Virus record (IMG/VR): IMGVR_UViG_3300006637_000054
Coordinates: 1-20,602 of that record
Reading direction: 5' to 3' (one strand)
Length of the DNA: 20,602 nucleotides
Origin: a virus
Both the position numbers and the translations under genes were made by a program. Positions 2,738 through 20,205 of the stretch are shown here, piece after piece (position 1 is the first letter of the stretch; every line of letters begins with the position of its first letter). Under the pieces are notes generated by a model. That model worked only from the letters and a program-made list of their open reading frames with translations. It was not told the DNA's origin and searched no databases.

Positions 2738-3544
2738 TTATCCTAAAGCTATTGCCATAGCAATTGATGATGCCGAAGCAGTAGAAGCAGAAGCAGCGGC
2801 ACTGGTTGCTGAACTAGCAGCCGCAGTAGCTGAAGAAGCAGCATTAGTTTCTGATGATGCTGCACTTGTAGCAGAAGATGCTGCTGCCGTTTGAGAACTT
2901 GCTGCTGCTGTCGCAGATGTCGCAGCAGCCGTAGCTGATGTTGCTGCCGCTGTCGCTGAACTAGCAGCATTAGTTGCCTGCGTTGTAGCATCAGCAACTT
3001 GTTCATCGGGATCGTAGGTGCTAACCCCAACATCGCCGTTAGCATCAAACTTGATTGCTTTGCTTGCGCGATTTGCTTTGCTAACGGTAATATCGCTGGC
3101 TGCGGCGGCGGTGGTGTTAAAATCGTTGGTTGCTGTAAAACTTAAATTCAAGTCAGTCAGATTATTGTTAATCTGCTGCGCAATCATGATTGCTTTGTCA
3201 AAGTTCTGCTCTAGCGTTTCAGCATCTAGCGCACTCCCTTCGGTGTAATCTGTGTCTTGTGAAAACGTCATGTTCCGCGAAATAGTAATGTATTCCGTGG
3301 TGGCAGTAGGGACATGACTAGAAAGAAAACGGATGGTCACGCTGGTAGCAGAAGCGCCAGATTGAACACTATAATGCGTTCCTTCAACGTAATTTGTATC
3401 GGTAGCCGTAGTCGTATTGGTATGAACGACCTGGATTTCAGAAGTGCTTAAATAATTAAAGCTAGCAGTGAAATCCGTGCTAGTGGTGTAACCAGAATTA
3501 CCAGTATATTGTTTCCTGGTTTCCGTTGTAGCGTTTACAGTCAT
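2738..3544 (-). CDS. Tail fibre with T7-type N-terminal attachment domain
   Basis: Residues 1 to about 135 match the pattern of the T7 tail-fibre N-terminal domain (Pfam PF03906 type): 'YTGNSGYTTSTDFTASFNYL', a 'Y.eG..Y.' turn, 'TATTEYITISRNM', and 'LDAETLEQNFDKAIMIAQQI'. This domain docks the fibre to the tail. Residues 136-190 form a linker. Residues 191-260 are ten tandem seven-residue Ala/Ser/Thr repeats. The protein stops at 268 residues, far shorter than T7 gp17 (553), and carries no tip domain, so tip functions are probably supplied by the separate small genes downstream. The start ATG overlaps the previous stop as ATGA. T7-like fibres are trimers; the heptads could form a trimeric stalk. 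Confidence 0.88.
   Translation of the reverse strand: MTVNATTETRKQYTGNSGYTTSTDFTASFNYLSTSEIQVVHTNTTTATDTNYVEGTHYSVQSGASATSVTIRFLSSHVPTATTEYITISRNMTFSQDTDYTEGSALDAETLEQNFDKAIMIAQQINNNLTDLNLSFTATNDFNTTAAAASDITVSKANRASKAIKFDANGDVGVSTYDPDEQVADATTQATNAASSATAAATSATAAATSATAAASSQTAAASSATSAASSETNAASSATAAASSATSAAASASTASASSIAMAIALG
2765..2974 (-). repeat. Ten tandem heptad repeats (21-nt units) in the tail fibre gene
   Basis: Fibre residues 191-260 read as ten units of the form T-x-A-A-(A/S)-S-(A/Q/E), for example TNAASSA, TAAATSA, TAAASSQ and TSAASSE. At the DNA level the 21-nt units are similar but diverged by codon changes. Copy number in such arrays can change by slippage or recombination, which would change stalk length. 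Confidence 0.85.
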
Positions 3545-12179: not shown

Positions 12180-15100
12180 TTACTCGTTAGTTTCGTAGTC
12201 GATTGCGATATTCAAGATGCTGCTGGGAAAAGGCTGATCCTGGCGCAAGTAAATCTCGCCGGAAGTGTCATAGACTCCAGGCATCGTCAGTTCTCTGTCT
12301 CCGGTAAACAGAGGCAGCGCCGTGCCAATCGAGTCACTGGTCAGACGAAAGGTTTCAATGCTGAGATCATCCACGCTGATGCCGTATTTCAAGCCCATCG
12401 TATCCAGCAGCTTTACATGAATCCGGTGAATGCGTTTCTTGTTTCCGATGCTGGTCTGCGTGCTAGGATCACCGATGGCAAGTGCTAGGGTCTGAATATC
12501 GGAATTGTAGGCAAAACCCACGCGCGCAGTAGTTACCGAAAGTGCCAGTGAAAGCTCACCCGCAGTAATTACTTTGTCAGGCTGATCAGCATCATTTCCT
12601 AGAACAGAGAAAGTCTGACCTTCGGCGTAGTGCAGGCTGGTGAGTGTGCTGGCGCTGCTGCCGGAATAATTAGAACCGCAGTCAATAAAGTGCGCATCTG
12701 ATGCAGACATGCTGTTGTCGTAAAACTGCTCCAGATATTCAACATAGCGTTGCGTAACATCTTTCTTGTAGATGGTGTGTGTGCCACTGCCCTGGTCGAT
12801 GTCAATCGCATCGCCGCCGGAAGAAGCTGCAATCTTGAACGTGGTAGAAGTTTTATCGCGCACATAATATGTGGTTCCTGCGGTGACGTTTGCAGGCATC
12901 GTGTCGCTGGTCGTGAATTTGATAGCATCTCCATCACTCAAGCCGTGTGATGCGATGGTGATGACATTGGTGCTTGCATTTATATCGGTGTGGGGAAACT
13001 GAGTCAGATATTCATCGACATCGCGCTTGACGACCATCCAGAGTTGATCATGCCCAGATGCTCCCGATCCGCGCGGGATCACCGAAGCAGATTCGACTTT
13101 CGCGTGGTTGCCGTAGGTTGCATCGGTGTGCGCGCCGCCAATGATATGAAGCCCCCACGATGACATGTTTAGGTCAGTGTTATAGGTACATGTCGCAACC
13201 TTTCCATCGGTGCGAACCACCCAAAGCAAGGAAGCAGGCTGATCCTGAAACACCAGGGCTTTGATTCCGGTCTGTGTAATATCTTCTGCGCGCAACGTAA
13301 TATCTTTGGCGCTGTATTGTTCCTGCTCGCGGTCAAAGATCAGTTCCCGCACCTTACGGCCATTCTGCTGGACGTAAAGCACGTTGTTGCCGATCTGTGC
13401 CGGAGTAGCAGAATCATGCGCAGACCAGTTCGATATTTTCTCAACGGTAAAATTAAACGGCGTGATTGTCACATCATCGCGATTACCAAACATCTGGTAG
13501 ATCCCGCCCGATGTCCCAAGCGATAATCTGCGCCCCTCGTTGATCCATTCAATCTTGTCAACCGTGTCGGATGAAATAAGGAGCGAAAACGCATTGTCAC
13601 TGTAGATTTGCTCGCCCATGATGCTCGCGCCCGCAGAATTAAAGTTGCCGGTTTGCACGCCAATCGGTTCGCTGGCTGCAAAATTGTCAAAGTCTCCGGT
13701 CTTGCTGAAGTGAACGGTCTGCGGCTCTTTTGATGTGCCTGCTAGCACCAAGCGTTGCTGGTAGATTTGGACTGTTCTTGGGTGGCCTGTGGTCGAGGAA
13801 AAACTGCCAAGCTGCCACTCCGTTGTAGCATCGGTGTATGCTAGTGGTTCGGAGACAACTGCGGTGATATTTTTGGTGTCGGTGTGTGCGGTGATTTCGA
13901 CATAGCCCCATTTGATTTGTGGCGCTACTTCCGTGTTCATGCGGATGATTCTGCCGACATCTGTAGACTTGAAACCATCGCCATCATTGATGCCTGTGGT
14001 CGAGCTAGCTTCTAGGGTGACTTTGGTGTAGGCAGGAATGAATTTCTTGTAGAATTTTAATTCGGCTGTAACCGTGCCGCTTATGTCAATTTCATCACCG
14101 CCAACGCTGGTTGCTAGCTTAAAGGTGTTTGTGGTCGCACCTATGATAAAATACTCGTTACCTTCACCTGGAGAAACACCACTAAGACCAGTTCCTCCTA
14201 AATAAAAAACGCGCTGACCGTTGACAAGCGGGTGATTGATTAAAGTAAAAAAATTGTTGTCAACATCCGGCCCATCTTTCGACATTTCGCCAACAAGCTC
14301 ATAGCCGTATTGTTTATAGTAAAGTTTTCTTGCGCCTGTGCCGGCATCAGTAAATGTATCTGCGGAGCCGCCTTGACTAAGTGAAACCTGAAATTCGTCA
14401 AGCGTTGCACTGATTACGTGATAGTCAGTAGAAGCAGAGATCCCATTAGGTAAATCACTACCGTCAAAGTAAACCAAGCTGTTATCAACAAGTCCATGAT
14501 TCGGGATTTTAAATTTGTTTCCAGAAGCATCGATGTTCGTGTCTTCCAGTTCTGCAATCAGCCCGCGATCTGAATTACTGCTGATGCTGGTTGCAACTGT
14601 CAGAGTAGTGTCTTCTGTGTTCAACGGCAGATAAGGACCGTCTTTCAAAGTCAGATCCGTGAGTGTCCAATTCGTATCTGCTAGACGTTTCAGTTCTGCA
14701 ATCTTGTGGTCAGGGTGCGCGATAAAGAGAACATCCGCAGACTGCGTGAAAAACAGATCATCAATCTGTGATGTGGTGTAGGTGGTGGATCGTTCATAAA
14801 CGGATTTAACGGTGTGCGTTCCAGAACCGGCTGCTGAAGTCAAATCCAGTGCTGCTCCAATCGTATTGTCAGCCAATGAAAGTGTTATGTCATTGGTACT
14901 CTTGGTTTTGATAAAATATCGCTGATTCGTCAGCAGCCCGCCTGGAAGCGTTCCTGTGGTAGAAAAATAAATATCATCGCCCACGCTCAAAGGTGTTCCA
15001 CTCGCAACCGTGATGGTGTTCGTGCTGTGGTTGAAGCTGGAAATCGTAGTTGCATCGGTGGTGACAATAGAATCCTCCCTATAGAACCGGATGTAGTTGT

Positions 15101-15350
15101 TTCCGAATTCCAGGATGTAGCTCTGCCCGCTTCCGAAATTAAACGGAACTAAGCGAACCGCAGCATTGTCTTTAGATCGGGAAACGTAGAACGATCCTGG
15201 CCTGCGCGCGACTGAACCTTGCGGCAGCGGAACATAGTTCTGACAGATTTTTAAGCTGGTACGGTATGAAGGAAGATCGACATAGCCCTGCATGCGCGGG
15301 CTGATTTGACCGTCTGCGAAGCTGGTTTGAACGCTCTGAATGCGCGCCAT
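12180..15350 (-). CDS. Tail nozzle protein (tail tubular B-like, 1056 aa) with inserted modules
   Basis: The N-terminus 'QTSFADGQISPRMQGYVDLP' and 'PLPQGSVARRPGSFYV' is the classic start of T7 gp12-type tail tubular protein B, which forms the nozzle at the tail tip. 'HPRTVQIYQQRLVLAGT' (about 523-540) and 'RRLSLGTSGGIYQM' (about 607-620) also match the family core. T7 gp12 has 794 residues; the extra length is largely explained by four copies of a beta-rich module of about 75 residues, at residues about 105-182, 272-347, 362-437 and 788-864. An AAGGAG Shine-Dalgarno (bases 15354-15359) lies in the end of the preceding gatekeeper gene, whose TAG stop directly abuts this ATG. The modules may be additional outward-facing domains on the nozzle. 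Confidence 0.92.
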   Translation of the reverse strand: MARIQSVQTSFADGQISPRMQGYVDLPSYRTSLKICQNYVPLPQGSVARRPGSFYVSRSKDNAAVRLVPFNFGSGQSYILEFGNNYIRFYREDSIVTTDATTISSFNHSTNTITVASGTPLSVGDDIYFSTTGTLPGGLLTNQRYFIKTKSTNDITLSLADNTIGAALDLTSAAGSGTHTVKSVYERSTTYTTSQIDDLFFTQSADVLFIAHPDHKIAELKRLADTNWTLTDLTLKDGPYLPLNTEDTTLTVATSISSNSDRGLIAELEDTNIDASGNKFKIPNHGLVDNSLVYFDGSDLPNGISASTDYHVISATLDEFQVSLSQGGSADTFTDAGTGARKLYYKQYGYELVGEMSKDGPDVDNNFFTLINHPLVNGQRVFYLGGTGLSGVSPGEGNEYFIIGATTNTFKLATSVGGDEIDISGTVTAELKFYKKFIPAYTKVTLEASSTTGINDGDGFKSTDVGRIIRMNTEVAPQIKWGYVEITAHTDTKNITAVVSEPLAYTDATTEWQLGSFSSTTGHPRTVQIYQQRLVLAGTSKEPQTVHFSKTGDFDNFAASEPIGVQTGNFNSAGASIMGEQIYSDNAFSLLISSDTVDKIEWINEGRRLSLGTSGGIYQMFGNRDDVTITPFNFTVEKISNWSAHDSATPAQIGNNVLYVQQNGRKVRELIFDREQEQYSAKDITLRAEDITQTGIKALVFQDQPASLLWVVRTDGKVATCTYNTDLNMSSWGLHIIGGAHTDATYGNHAKVESASVIPRGSGASGHDQLWMVVKRDVDEYLTQFPHTDINASTNVITIASHGLSDGDAIKFTTSDTMPANVTAGTTYYVRDKTSTTFKIAASSGGDAIDIDQGSGTHTIYKKDVTQRYVEYLEQFYDNSMSASDAHFIDCGSNYSGSSASTLTSLHYAEGQTFSVLGNDADQPDKVITAGELSLALSVTTARVGFAYNSDIQTLALAIGDPSTQTSIGNKKRIHRIHVKLLDTMGLKYGISVDDLSIETFRLTSDSIGTALPLFTGDRELTMPGVYDTSGEIYLRQDQPFPSSILNIAIDYETNE
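12759..12989 (-). repeat. Nozzle inserted module, copy 4 (residues ~788-864)
   Basis: Fourth copy, separated from the others by about 350 residues of nozzle core: 'NASTNVITIASHGLSDGDAI', 'MPANVTAGTTYYVRDKTST', 'TFKIAASSGGDAIDIDQGSG', 'THTIYKK'. It has been inserted at a different place in the fold from copies 1-3. Confidence 0.72.
14040..14267 (-). repeat. Nozzle inserted module, copy 3 (residues ~362-437)
   Basis: Third copy, only about 15 residues after copy 2: 'NNFFTLINHPLVNGQRVFYL', 'NEYFIIGATTNTFKLATSV', 'GGDEIDISGTVTAELKFYKK'. The 'TT.TFKLA.S.GGD.ID' segment is almost the same as in copy 4. Confidence 0.72.
14310..14537 (-). repeat. Nozzle inserted module, copy 2 (residues ~272-347)
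   Basis: Second copy: 'NKFKIPNHGLVDNSLVYFDG', 'DLPNGISASTDYHVISATLD', then 'FTDAGTGARKLYYK'. It has the 'NHGL.D...VYF' strand-turn motif also seen in copies 3 and 4. Confidence 0.7.
14805..15038 (-). repeat. Nozzle inserted module, copy 1 (residues ~105-182)
   Basis: Beta-rich module following the shared scheme: 'N.ITVASGTPLSVGDDIYF', '.LPGGLL..QRYFIKTKSTND', 'ALDLTSAAGSGTHTV'. Recognised by comparison with the three other copies in the same protein. The similarity is at protein level; DNA identity is low, so the duplications are old or the copies were acquired separately. Confidence 0.7.
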
Positions 15351-15911
15351 CTATCTCCTTGCTTCAATGAAAACATCACTCCAGAGGGTGTCAACATTCG
15401 CACGCTCTGCCGAATCGATGGAGCGCGCTTCTGCAACAACGCTGAGAAACTTGGAAAGCATGTTGTTGCGCAGTTCCGGTCTGCCGGTCAAAGATTCTGC
15501 GATCTCTGATGCGAGCTTCAGCGCAATCGCTTGAATGATTACACTGTCAAATTCATTGGGATCAAGAACTTGTTTAACGTATTTGAGCAGGACTTTTTCT
15601 GCATCGGTGACGATGTTTCCGTTTTCGATGCGGAATGGTGTCTCCCATTCTTCAACGTCAAGAACGCGCAAACAGTCACTAGGCAACGAATAAGCATAAT
15701 CGAAGCCCCATACTGGCGCGGTGTCGTTACGTGCTAGCTGGGTGCGCTTGATGGCGCATGACCAAGGATGCGAGCGCAGGACTGAATCTCTGACATCATC
15801 GTACCGGAGATTGCAGACCCTGGCCCGCTCGTTGGCATCCGACAAGCTAGATATTTTCTGGTCGCCCAGATTGCTCAAAGCGATATTACAAATATCAACT
15901 ACGCTTGCCAT
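15351..15911 (-). CDS. Tail gatekeeper, tail tubular A-like (186 aa)
   Basis: The start 'MASVVDICNIALSNLGDQKI' followed by 'RYDDVRDSVLRSHPWSCAIK' is characteristic of the T7 gp11-type tail tubular protein A family (196 residues in T7). 'YSLPSDCLRVLDV' and the C-terminal helix with 'ALKLASEIAESLTG' also fit. The protein forms the ring between portal and nozzle that closes the DNA channel. It starts 8 bases after the stop of the decoration gene with no strong Shine-Dalgarno, so coupling to the upstream gene is likely. It abuts the nozzle gene directly, in the same order as T7 genes 11 and 12. Confidence 0.9.
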   Translation of the reverse strand: MASVVDICNIALSNLGDQKISSLSDANERARVCNLRYDDVRDSVLRSHPWSCAIKRTQLARNDTAPVWGFDYAYSLPSDCLRVLDVEEWETPFRIENGNIVTDAEKVLLKYVKQVLDPNEFDSVIIQAIALKLASEIAESLTGRPELRNNMLSKFLSVVAEARSIDSAERANVDTLWSDVFIEARR

Positions 15912-16383: not shown

Positions 16384-17325
16384 TTAAGAAGGATCGCAAG
16401 CAATTTCAACCACACGCTCTTCTTCCAATCGCACCGATCCGATGGTCATGTTCAGATAAACGTAGGTGCTGAATCGCTTGTCAGCCCGCTCTGTGATTCT
16501 CGCGCGCACATCTTCCCAAAGACAAAGGCCGATGCCGTCACGGTGGAATGCGATCACTTGATCATCGCTGTTTCCATCAGTAGTGATTCGCTCGCTTCTA
16601 ATAAACTGGAAACCCATGAAGGTGTCGAGTTCGCCGGATACCAGGGCGCGCACGCTGTTATAGTCAGCGCTAGCAGCACTGATGCCGCCTGAACCAGATG
16701 ATCCACCTAATGAAGTGTCACTGAGAAGCTTCGCCATTTGCTTGGCGTTTGCGACAATGAACAGATTAGGTCGTCCACCCATATCGTAATCGTCTGCTTC
16801 GCCGGCTCCTAAGATCCTGCGTGCTTCGATTAACTTACCGATGGTCAAACCTCTATCACCGGAACCTGAATCGTAGGTGTTAAAACTAACGGAAACTTTC
16901 TGCCCTGCGGGAAGAGTTTGTGAAGTTGCGCCACCTTTTCCAGTGAAAGCAGTTCCAAGCGCTTCAGAGATGATCAGATCATCCATTGCTCGTCCCATCG
17001 CATAGGCTGCGTTGACGGCATAAGGTGATGCTGGATCAATCAACATGCGAAGCTTGTCGCTGTTATCGACCATATCTCCCCAATCGTATGATTTCGGCAC
17101 AACGCGCCTGCGATCATGTGGGGTATCAATGAGCGGAGAATCCGCGTGGCGTGAAGTAACTTCTTGTGCGTTGGTGCTTCCAATACGCTCCATGAAGACT
17201 TCTTCACCGATTTTACCGGTTTCTAAGCGCACAGCATTTCGCAAACGCGAACCTTGCTGTTGCACTAGCAGCATCACGTTATCCGTGTACTGCTTAACAA
17301 ATGCAGTAGTAATCTGTGTAGACAT
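16384..17325 (-). CDS. Major capsid protein (313 aa)
   Basis: The gene lies directly after the scaffold and is preceded by its own promoter-leader region. The sequence starts 'MSTQITTAFVKQYTDNVMLL', with 'GSRLRNAVRLETGKIGEEVF' and 'RRVVPKSYDWGDMVDNSDKL' following. These match the ~310-330-residue phage capsid family found in BPP-1-like and many marine podoviruses, with an HK97-type fold expected. 'YAMGRAMDDLIISEALGTAF' and 'FHRDGIGLCLWEDVRARITE' are other typical segments. No N-terminal prohead protease cleavage site is evident and a separate scaffold is present, as in T7. A GGAG Shine-Dalgarno (17333-17336) sits 7 bases before the ATG, inside one arm of a predicted hairpin. T7's capsid gene frameshift has no visible counterpart here. 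Confidence 0.92.
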   Translation of the reverse strand: MSTQITTAFVKQYTDNVMLLVQQQGSRLRNAVRLETGKIGEEVFMERIGSTNAQEVTSRHADSPLIDTPHDRRRVVPKSYDWGDMVDNSDKLRMLIDPASPYAVNAAYAMGRAMDDLIISEALGTAFTGKGGATSQTLPAGQKVSVSFNTYDSGSGDRGLTIGKLIEARRILGAGEADDYDMGGRPNLFIVANAKQMAKLLSDTSLGGSSGSGGISAASADYNSVRALVSGELDTFMGFQFIRSERITTDGNSDDQVIAFHRDGIGLCLWEDVRARITERADKRFSTYVYLNMTIGSVRLEEERVVEIACDPS

Positions 17326-18307: not shown

Positions 18308-18545
18308 AGGATTCTCGCTCCATGCGTTCCAGGTCAGCGATGCTGATGTTTAAGTATGACAGCAGATCCGCTACTACAGAGCGCCTGCCATCGTTGAAAT
18401 GCGTATGGTACGGATCGCCCGCAACCATACAAGGACTGAAGATGAAGTTGCGCGAGCATAAGTCTGCTAGCACGCTTTTGCCATCTTCCGTGTCAAAGAC
18501 ACGTTCATAGAGCGCTTTACGCTCCTTCTCCCGCTGCTTTAGCAT
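18270..18545 (-). CDS. Bbp19-like small protein (91 aa)
   Basis: The pattern 'YERVFDTEDGKSVLADLCSR' followed by 'DPYHTHFNDGRRSVVADLLS' is the signature of the Bbp19-like phage family, named from Bordetella phage BPP-1, where it also lies near the portal. Its function is not known; the location between portal and scaffold suggests a head-assembly role. The gene overlaps the portal end by 29 bases and the scaffold start by 38 bases, each in different frames. The only ATG consistent with the family's N-terminus is at 18545; it has no clear Shine-Dalgarno and may be translated by reinitiation or coupling from the portal. Confidence 0.8.
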   Translation of the reverse strand: MLKQREKERKALYERVFDTEDGKSVLADLCSRNFIFSPCMVAGDPYHTHFNDGRRSVVADLLSYLNISIADLERMERESYERSRTNLDDEY

Positions 18546-20205
18546 TTGCTAATGATGCTTGTGAGCGATTGCGGTCTGCCATCGATATAAGGTTGTTGGC
18601 TTGCGCTACCGCCATTTGTTCTTGAAGCTGCTGCTGTCGCGCCATTTGTTCCGCTTCTGCTTCGATTTCTTCCTGAATCTCTTCGTCAGTTTTAAAAACA
18701 GAAGGTGGCACGCGCAGTATTTCAGCCGCCAGTGATGCAACTCTTCCAGTATCGAGCCTGCGCAGGATGTTTGGATCGATCTGCGCCATCGGAATGAGAA
18801 ACTGGATCAGCGCGCTCACACTGGTAAGCTCGCCAGTTCGCATCGAAATCCCAACCGGATTAGTGTACTCAATGTTGAAGTTTGCTTCCACAAGGGCCTC
18901 TGGGGGGTCTGGAAGCATCCGGTTCTTAATCATGATGTTCATCGTGCGCTCAACCAGTGGTCCCAGAAACTCAACTTCCTGGCGTGCGACAATCGGTCCC
19001 AGGATGCTAAGACGGTCCCGCTGGCGCTGGTTGACTTCGGTGGCACTGAAACGCAGCACATCACCATCGGGCGCAACCGGCCCAGGAAGCTCCAGCATAT
19101 CGAGATAGAATGCACGGTTAATCGAATCTTTCACCATGCCCATTTTGGCTTCATTCAGATCCGGCCTGCCTGCGGTTTGTAAAGGAATGATCCTGTCATT
19201 CGGAGACAAGCCTGCACGGAAAAAGTTCAACCCGCCTGGGGTGGTTCGTATCGGTGAAAGGAATCCATCGTCAGGAACCATCAGCGGGGGATCAACCAGT
19301 TTGGCAAGTGCTTTCAATCCTAGCTCTTCCATCTTGTTAAGCATCTTGGTATCCGCAAGTGCTTCGATCCCAGGCCCGCGCCCATAGATTTCTTGGCTGT
19401 TTCGTTCCCAGCGGCTGCACACGTATGGAAAGGTTTCAAAGCCGGAAATGTTGACGATGTGGCTTTCCTTGAGCGGGCAGATGTAGACTGACATGAACGG
19501 CATGTTCATCGCAGATTGATCACCGAATGCGCGCTCCTTTCGAGGTTTAACGACATGCAGGCACTCAAATTCTTCATACTGCTTACCGTCTGTAAATGCT
19601 TTGACTACCGATTCAGAAAGATTGTCGATGCCAAACTCTTCAACAAGCTGCTTCGCCGTCATCTTGATCTTGCGGAACACGGTGTCCACGCGCCCCAGGT
19701 AATTGACTTGGAGATAGCATTCTGCGAGCGAGAAGGTGCGGAACATCGGACCCTGCCCAGGCATGTCTAGCACCATCATCACACCAGTTCCGAATGCTCC
19801 CAGGTCACTGTAATATTCGTGTGCGGCGGGATGAAAATTGGATTCCGGTGAATTGAATAACATGGCTGCGCGCCGCTGTGCTTCTTCAAGCCATAGCTGC
19901 ACTTGCCGATCCTGCATCAGATCACGCTCCACCGTCAACTGGAACCAGGGAATGCTAGCATTGGTCAGAGTGTTATGGATGCCGCTGGAGAACCTTGTCA
20001 GCGCACGCACCGCAGTTCCTTCATAGATTTTGTTGCGGCGTTTCTCTCCTGGTGAGTATTCGGAGATAAAGTCAGCACGCCTGGGAAGCATGTACTCGCT
20101 AATCTCCTGCCAGTAGTTTTCCCAATTACGCCGGTCGGTTTCTAACTGCTGAAACTCCGTGACCAGTTCCTTGGTGAAGTCTCGCACTTGCGGGTCATTA
20201 ACCAC
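18517..20205 (-). CDS. Portal / head-to-tail connector protein (562 aa)
   Basis: Residues 19-75 ('LETDRRNWENYWQEISEYML', 'PRRADF', 'IYEGTAVRALTRFSSGIHNT', 'LTNASIPWFQL') are characteristic of the T7-type head-to-tail connecting protein (Pfam PF12236 type; T7 gp8 has 536 residues). 'RKIKMTAKQLVEEFG', 'YGRGPGIEALADTKMLNKME' and 'LRFSATEVNQRQRDRLSILG' match further along. The C-terminal about 60 residues are a Gln/Glu/Ala-rich helix ('EAEQMARQQQLQEQMAVAQA'), expected to line the crown. Twelve copies should form the ring through which DNA enters and leaves. The start is GTG at 20203-20205 with a strong GGAGG six bases upstream (20211-20215), inside the previous gene; the ATG nearby is out of frame. 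It overlaps the upstream gene by 8 bases. Confidence 0.95.
   Translation of the reverse strand: MVNDPQVRDFTKELVTEFQQLETDRRNWENYWQEISEYMLPRRADFISEYSPGEKRRNKIYEGTAVRALTRFSSGIHNTLTNASIPWFQLTVERDLMQDRQVQLWLEEAQRRAAMLFNSPESNFHPAAHEYYSDLGAFGTGVMMVLDMPGQGPMFRTFSLAECYLQVNYLGRVDTVFRKIKMTAKQLVEEFGIDNLSESVVKAFTDGKQYEEFECLHVVKPRKERAFGDQSAMNMPFMSVYICPLKESHIVNISGFETFPYVCSRWERNSQEIYGRGPGIEALADTKMLNKMEELGLKALAKLVDPPLMVPDDGFLSPIRTTPGGLNFFRAGLSPNDRIIPLQTAGRPDLNEAKMGMVKDSINRAFYLDMLELPGPVAPDGDVLRFSATEVNQRQRDRLSILGPIVARQEVEFLGPLVERTMNIMIKNRMLPDPPEALVEANFNIEYTNPVGISMRTGELTSVSALIQFLIPMAQIDPNILRRLDTGRVASLAAEILRVPPSVFKTDEEIQEEIEAEAEQMARQQQLQEQMAVAQANNLISMADRNRSQASLANAKAAGEGA

Follow-up and report, generated by a model that had tools for sequence, protein, structure and literature searches.

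Are the repeated segments of a long phage tail nozzle part of the nozzle proper, or are they separate domains that could serve a purpose of their own? Nozzles are usually viewed as conserved parts of the channel, and studies of host range turn to fibres and spikes. The nozzle that raises this question is encoded in a virus record of 20,602 bases (the window throughout this text), in which the structural block consists of a portal-like gene, the major head protein gene, the adaptor gene and then the nozzle gene; a candidate tail fibre gene is also present:

18517-20205: portal-like gene (PHROG 332)
16384-17325: major head protein (PHROG 3437)
15351-15911, minus strand: adaptor (tail tubular A, gp11-like), 186 aa, used as gene order marker (PHROG 394, E = 5.7e-58)
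12180-15350, minus strand: tail nozzle gene, T7 gp12-like, 1056 aa (PHROG 376, E = 4.5e-160)
2738-3544, minus strand: candidate tail fibre, only 268 aa (PHROG 13481, E = 9.2e-9, and PHROGs 1640 and 36601)

The nozzle protein is about 260 residues longer than T7 gp12, as an earlier reading of the DNA letters had stated (1056 vs 794 aa, a difference of 262 aa). It is homologous to known nozzles (PHROG 376; 8ck1_A, the Carin-1 nozzle and its closest relative of solved structure, with a phmmer E-value of 1.1e-63), its gene adjoins the gp11-like adaptor gene (15351-15911), and its AlphaFold (AF2) model has the seven-bladed propeller, platform, dock and tip of the T7 gp12 type when compared with 8ck1 and 7ey9. 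The model of the whole nozzle has a pLDDT of 84 and superimposes on 8ck1_A with Z = 43 and rmsd = 1.8 Å over 653 residues; the corresponding Z values are 39 for 9efk and 27.6 for T7 gp12 (7ey9). A stretch of low pLDDT (about 42) at aa 561-581 (window 13608-13670, minus strand) is an extra loop of the window clade with respect to the HTVC010P group. By nozzle and portal the nearest cultured relatives are the HTVC010P-type Pelagibacter phages, at about 32-38% identity, and the source phage is a marine, short-tailed phage. The match of its candidate fibre (2738-3544, minus strand) is to the initial parts of longer tail-fibre families, and a distal part for receptor binding may be encoded by another gene.

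Within the nozzle protein there are four diverged copies, m1 to m4, of one domain of about 82 aa:

aa 97-188, 14787-15062, minus strand: m1, site A, in a propeller loop (leave-one-out i-E = 4.1e-6)
aa 267-348, 14307-14552, minus strand: m2, site B, at the inferred start of the nozzle-tip segment (i-E = 8.2e-9)
aa 357-438, 14037-14282, minus strand: m3, site B (leave-one-out i-E = 5.3e-9)
aa 784-867, 12750-13001, minus strand: m4, site C, in a late propeller loop (i-E = 4.1e-15)

Each copy was found by a leave-one-out profile built from the other three, with the search space set to 1000 sequences, and the rest of the nozzle protein gave no match to these profiles. The four copies of one module proposed in the sequence-only reading are thus recovered at levels far from background (i-E of 4e-6 to 4e-15), and the interval to which they had been assigned (12759-15038) agrees with the module coordinates (15062 to 12750). 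When pairwise scores were compared with those of 1000 shuffles, Z was 13.5-16.2 in four of the six pairs, and the pairs m1-m2 (Z = 4.1) and m1-m3 (Z = 3.2) were weak if taken alone. Identity among the copies is only about 25-37%, which points to an old, diverged family; a recent tandem duplication was ruled out by this value and by the clade-wide grouping of modules from the same site. Since about 78 aa of conserved nozzle separate m1 from m2, the window nozzle has three insertion sites: the earlier estimate of at least two places was right in that there is more than one, but it was an understatement, as relatives use six. The four copies make up about a third of the nozzle protein, and apart from the nozzle no module was found in the window or in the six related records scanned.

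The alignment with 8ck1 covers nozzle aa 7-96 and 187-252, and where the window nozzle runs from residue 96 to 187 the 8ck1 chain runs from 103 to 112; because eight chain residues alone bridge the aligned blocks, m1 is absent from 8ck1. In an alignment of cultured relatives m2, m3 and m4 are missing at clean borders from HTVC010P, HTVC035P, HTVC028P, Baldr and others, and HTVC028P also lacks m1. Modelled alone (AF2, from an alignment of 78 module copies), m4 has a pLDDT of 86. The modules are separate inserted domains outside the nozzle core, because they are cleanly present or absent in homologues and fold on their own, and because the match to 8ck1 does not depend on them; the sequence-only reading, which had regarded the segments as extra modules, is borne out by the homologue borders, by the isolated model and by 8ck1. 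Nozzles are beta-rich and propeller blades may look alike, but that the segments are conserved core merely resembling repeats is hardly conceivable and is refuted by the profile search, which picks out four copies only, by the homologues that lack them at clean borders, and by the superposition on 8ck1, which covers 653 residues, fewer than the 1056 present.

The module is a compact beta-barrel of the E1-FCCH / endosialidase-barrel superfamily. The m4 model has the FCCH fold (Z = 8.7, rmsd = 3.2 over 76-77 residues against the FCCH domain of Uba1, 181-263), and the module fold also resembles the barrels of the endosialidases of phi92 (256-340; Z = 7.3, rmsd = 2.3, 71 residues) and K1F (424-509; Z = 6.2) and those of siphophage tail tubes (T1, Mystique, FCWL1; Z = 6.0-6.9), it being understood that Z values below 8 can reflect a common arrangement. 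Likeness at this level is supported because the module profile matches by sequence too: it finds tail protein gp15 (E = 2.5e-6), the phi92 endosialidase (E = 4e-5), which backs the assignment to the End_beta_barrel fold of phi92 and K1F, and the KP34gp57 depolymerase (121-176; E = 6e-4), with K1F at an E-value of only 0.15 and ubiquitin E1 weakly matched. Among solved structures it matched no nozzle chain up to E = 1, 8ck1 and 9efk included. The Pfam family E1_FCCH (PF16190) matches 31 of the 78 modules (best E = 2.4e-15); its cut-off of 29.5 bits is exceeded by site-A modules of relatives (50.7-51.4 bits), and in the window m4 stays below it (18.3-18.4 bits, E = 0.0023) and m1-m3 have no match. 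For PF12195 (End_beta_barrel, cut-off 35 bits) m4 scores 15 bits, and the best of the 78 modules has E = 1.8e-4. Matches to Ig-fold families were limited to weak Ig_7 matches in three of the 78 modules, and by fold the best matches are FCCH-type barrels. Elsewhere among phages the module occurs under the annotations tail fibre, tail spike, baseplate wedge, minor tail and tail tube. In the module tree m2, m3, m4 and the nested modules described below form one group (support 89/92), which fits duplication within the window lineage; within the HTVC010P group the modules at site A form a subtype of their own (branch 1.71, support 100/100). The module also explains why the nozzles of some Vibrio phages (L018; MG592551, MG592403-5) bear the misleading annotation 'FCCH domain ubiquitin-activating enzyme E1'.

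The position of the modules in the nozzle can be judged from T7 gp12, a seven-bladed propeller whose tip domain is reached from the 'bottom' opening through a loop of blade 3 and whose fibre dock and platform lie on the C-terminal side (PMC6702177). WD40-type propellers align to nozzle residues of about 48-876, and a profile alignment with T7 gp12 pairs only its residues 336-462 with nozzle aa 519-661, at 66% probability. Upstream of the stretch paired with T7 lies the following segment:

aa 439-515, 13806-14036, minus strand: conserved segment after site B, likely equivalent of the tip domain

Its tip-like character is suggested because it stands between propeller strands and upstream of the part aligned to T7 336-462. 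Site B comes just before that part, where T7 inserts its tip. From this order and the domain description of T7, as distinct from a residue-level match, we infer a distal-tip position for m2 and m3.

Counting the modules of related phages, as had been proposed earlier, revealed wide variation. At least one module was present in 69 of the nozzle loci (denoted by L numbers) collected at that stage, and among 60 nozzles the number ranged from 0 to 5: none in 18, one in 16, two in 14, three in 5, four in 5 and five in 2. A module is thus dispensable, since 18 of 60 related nozzles have none. Six sites on the core hold from one to three modules each: A (aa ~99), B (~254-354), E (521), C' (750), C (778-783) and D (895-905). 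On the core tree at least 12 gains or losses are required at site A, 10 of them forced by well-supported branches, and fewer at the other sites (B 3, C' 4, C 2, D 4). As an example, L081 and L057 (88% identical) differ by a whole site-A module vs a short SGSA loop. Site E is used by one phage: L020 (MW202473) has three FCCH modules, two of them in tandem at 521, a site unused elsewhere in the set, and the 'tail tubular protein a' gene beside its nozzle is unusually long. At site C' HTVC010P (L016) has a different insert of ~100 aa where Baldr has an FCCH-type module, and insertion sites may accept unrelated domains too. Two loci, L012 and L116, are parts of a nozzle gene interrupted by the ends of a single 37-kb contig, which would be expected if this relative of the window phage is near-complete and circularly permuted.

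Some modules are inserted into others. In L024, L025, L109-L112, L115, L117, L119 and L121 the equivalent of m3 is split in the order first half (profile 5-34), complete module, second half (profile 35-85), the nested insertion falling at window aa ~389 within the m3 homologues; in the nested case of L124 the sequence ends after the second element. L027 and L028 (90% identical) differ by another insert in the same internal loop. Its sequence is different, and the loop of the module is therefore an acceptance site, apparently used at least twice; nesting apparently arose at least twice independently. Nested modules are a clear natural case of a domain that takes its own kind into a loop.

Close relatives differ in single modules also where the number of modules is not at issue. 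In the window and L004 the cores are 98.6% identical (dS = 0.17), whereas m3 is 77% identical (dS = 0.97); m4 is conserved like the core (99% identical). Synonymous divergence is likewise higher in m3 than in the core for L008 vs L009 (0.86 vs 0.26), and in m2 for L109 vs L024 (1.33 vs 0.11) and L111 vs L121 (1.16 vs 0.10). The values of pS are 0.54 in m3 vs 0.16 outside for the window and L004 (circular-shift p = 0.015) and 0.62 in m2 vs 0.11 outside for L109 and L024 (p = 0.003). The m3 of L004 is 75-77% identical to those of L005 and L014 and 77% to that of the window, whose core the L004 core resembles at 98%. Pooling m2 and m3, a subset picked after the data were seen, over three independent pairs gives a circular-shift p of 0.0085; with all four modules pooled over three pairs the excess is not significant (p = 0.11). 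Outside the window clade, excess divergence is recognized at site A of L034/L038 (p = 0.011) and at C' of L075/L084 (p = 0.016), and there is none in the modules of L083/L088, L032/L033 and L016/L045. For L008/L009 divergence also peaks in the core, at aa 700-779 and 900-959, near sites C' and D, which suggests that the loops at these sites, where other phages have insertions, are prone to exchange even when they hold no module.

Positive selection on amino acids was rejected as an explanation, as dN/dS is well below 1 (0.19 in modules vs 0.05 in the core for the window and L004): rapid amino-acid selection is not the cause because synonymous sites diverge as well, and for the same reason a diversity-generating retroelement is unlikely. 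To judge from the sequence comparisons, single modules have likely been replaced by recombination. All close relatives are metagenome contigs, and chimeric assembly or misalignment could mimic module-specific divergence; this would touch the claim of exchange only, and we consider it improbable, because both m3 alleles recur across records and metagenomes, the m3 alignments have few gaps, and divergence of this kind is seen in further modules and outside the clade as well. The m3 of L002 and that of L003 are identical to the one in the window, and the other allele is present in L004 and L013, from separate metagenomes, so that each allele is present in at least two metagenomes.

As to function, the modules might be near-neutral passengers, copies of a promiscuous domain that enters insertion-tolerant loops and is kept because it is harmless. 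A domain that is often gained and lost, enters its own loop and is present all over phage tail proteins is what one would expect in that case. This is nevertheless quite unlikely, given that every module is under purifying selection (dN/dS well below 1), that a few sites are reused instead of random loops, and that four copies amount to about a third of each subunit. The modules might otherwise be structural and help the hexamer, the fibre dock or the tip to withstand pressure and shear, with no host contact. There is precedent for such a role in domain 2 of the YSD1 tail-tube protein, an inserted beta domain that stabilizes the ring (PMC8718954); the fold is found in tail-tube proteins, and the conservation of m4 equals that of the core (99% identity between the window and L004). 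A purely structural role for all modules has to face the observations that 18 of 60 related nozzles have none, that their number shifts between near neighbours, and that m2 or m3 is exchanged without change elsewhere in the nozzle, which speaks against tight packing; we regard it as unlikely, although it deserves more weight than the passengers.

The interpretation that we prefer, with a probability of roughly one in two, is that the modules face outward in weak multivalent contact with glycans, the variable ones being exchangeable and m4 structural. The scaffold is a conserved T7-gp12-type nozzle (propeller, fibre dock, platform, tip segment) whose loops take up barrel modules, and the modules would be outward decorations of the tail end. 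With six nozzle copies per hexamer there could be up to 24 of them, and those at sites A and B might make weak, repeated contacts with host-surface glycans, helping the phage to stay on the cell and take up its orientation there until the fibre triggers gate opening. Exchange of a single module would retune the contact and leave the gate undisturbed. Contact would be made by the variable m2 and m3 and to a lesser degree by m1; for the conserved m4 a structural role, for example packing near the fibre dock, is more likely.

Surface contact is plausible because the module family occurs in fibres, spikes, baseplates and the barrels of capsule-degrading enzymes. The K1F barrel provides one of three polysialic-acid binding sites and is a hotspot of host discrimination in a deep mutational scan (PMC12632334). 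In KP34gp57 a barrel insertion completes the capsule-binding cavity, and residues R145 and D151 matter for capsule degradation (PMC10653864); both fall inside the stretch matched by the module profile (121-176). For Ig-type domains of tail tubes, contact with surface carbohydrates has been proposed and is unproven (PMC8718954). Likeness of fold is no proof of glycan binding, because the fold also decorates tail tubes and serves ubiquitin E1. Purifying selection within the modules and the 18 of 60 nozzles without a module count against glycan contact, and the core peaks of L008/L009 and the three pairs without excess divergence count against the proposal with exchange included. The small size of the candidate fibre (268 aa) leaves scope for nozzle modules in surface contact, which is suggestive only. 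On balance we would give host-surface glycan contact by the modules about even odds. That the nozzle is a combinatorial, multivalent glycan-contact array of up to 24-30 modules per virion, swapped and nested and evolving apart from the fibre, is a tentative and rather doubtful extension.

This analysis has shown the modular anatomy of these nozzles and the turnover of their modules. The nozzle, seen as a fixed DNA gate, also carries exchangeable domains that may contact sugars. Should the modules touch the cell surface, a variable surface component has been overlooked in host-range work on abundant marine phages. The natural pairs L081/L057 and window/L004 make a role in surface contact directly testable.

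These results can be compared with what is known of other phages. Repeated, exchangeable beta domains on tail parts are known already; as far as open-access papers and solved structures go, FCCH-type modules in nozzle loops, their nesting and their separate exchange are undescribed, and searches of open-access papers turned up no account of FCCH-type modules in phage nozzles. The nozzles of Carin-1, a Cobetia marina phage (8ck1), and LME-1 (9efk) have the same core as the window nozzle, but in 8ck1 site A is without a module, and neither chain matches the module profile up to E = 1. Tail tubular protein B of the HTVC010P group is a homologous nozzle (about 32-38% identity), in many cases with a site-A module; this group has mostly one or two modules and a distinct site-A subtype, and its aligned cultured members have none at B or C. 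The window modules have their fold in common with PF16190 E1_FCCH, but they are below its cut-off (18.3 vs 29.5) and have no E1 context. The barrels of phi92, K1F and KP34gp57 are, like the module, borne by a larger tail protein; they belong, however, to polysaccharide-degrading tailspike enzymes, whereas those of the window are carried in several copies by a hexameric nozzle with no enzyme. The decorations of siphophage tail tubes (SPP1, lambda, T5, YSD1; PMC8718954) likewise add small beta domains to a structural part of the tail, but they belong to another fold family and mostly consist of one terminal domain per subunit, whereas the modules of the window nozzle are internal and multiple and, in its relatives, nest within one another.
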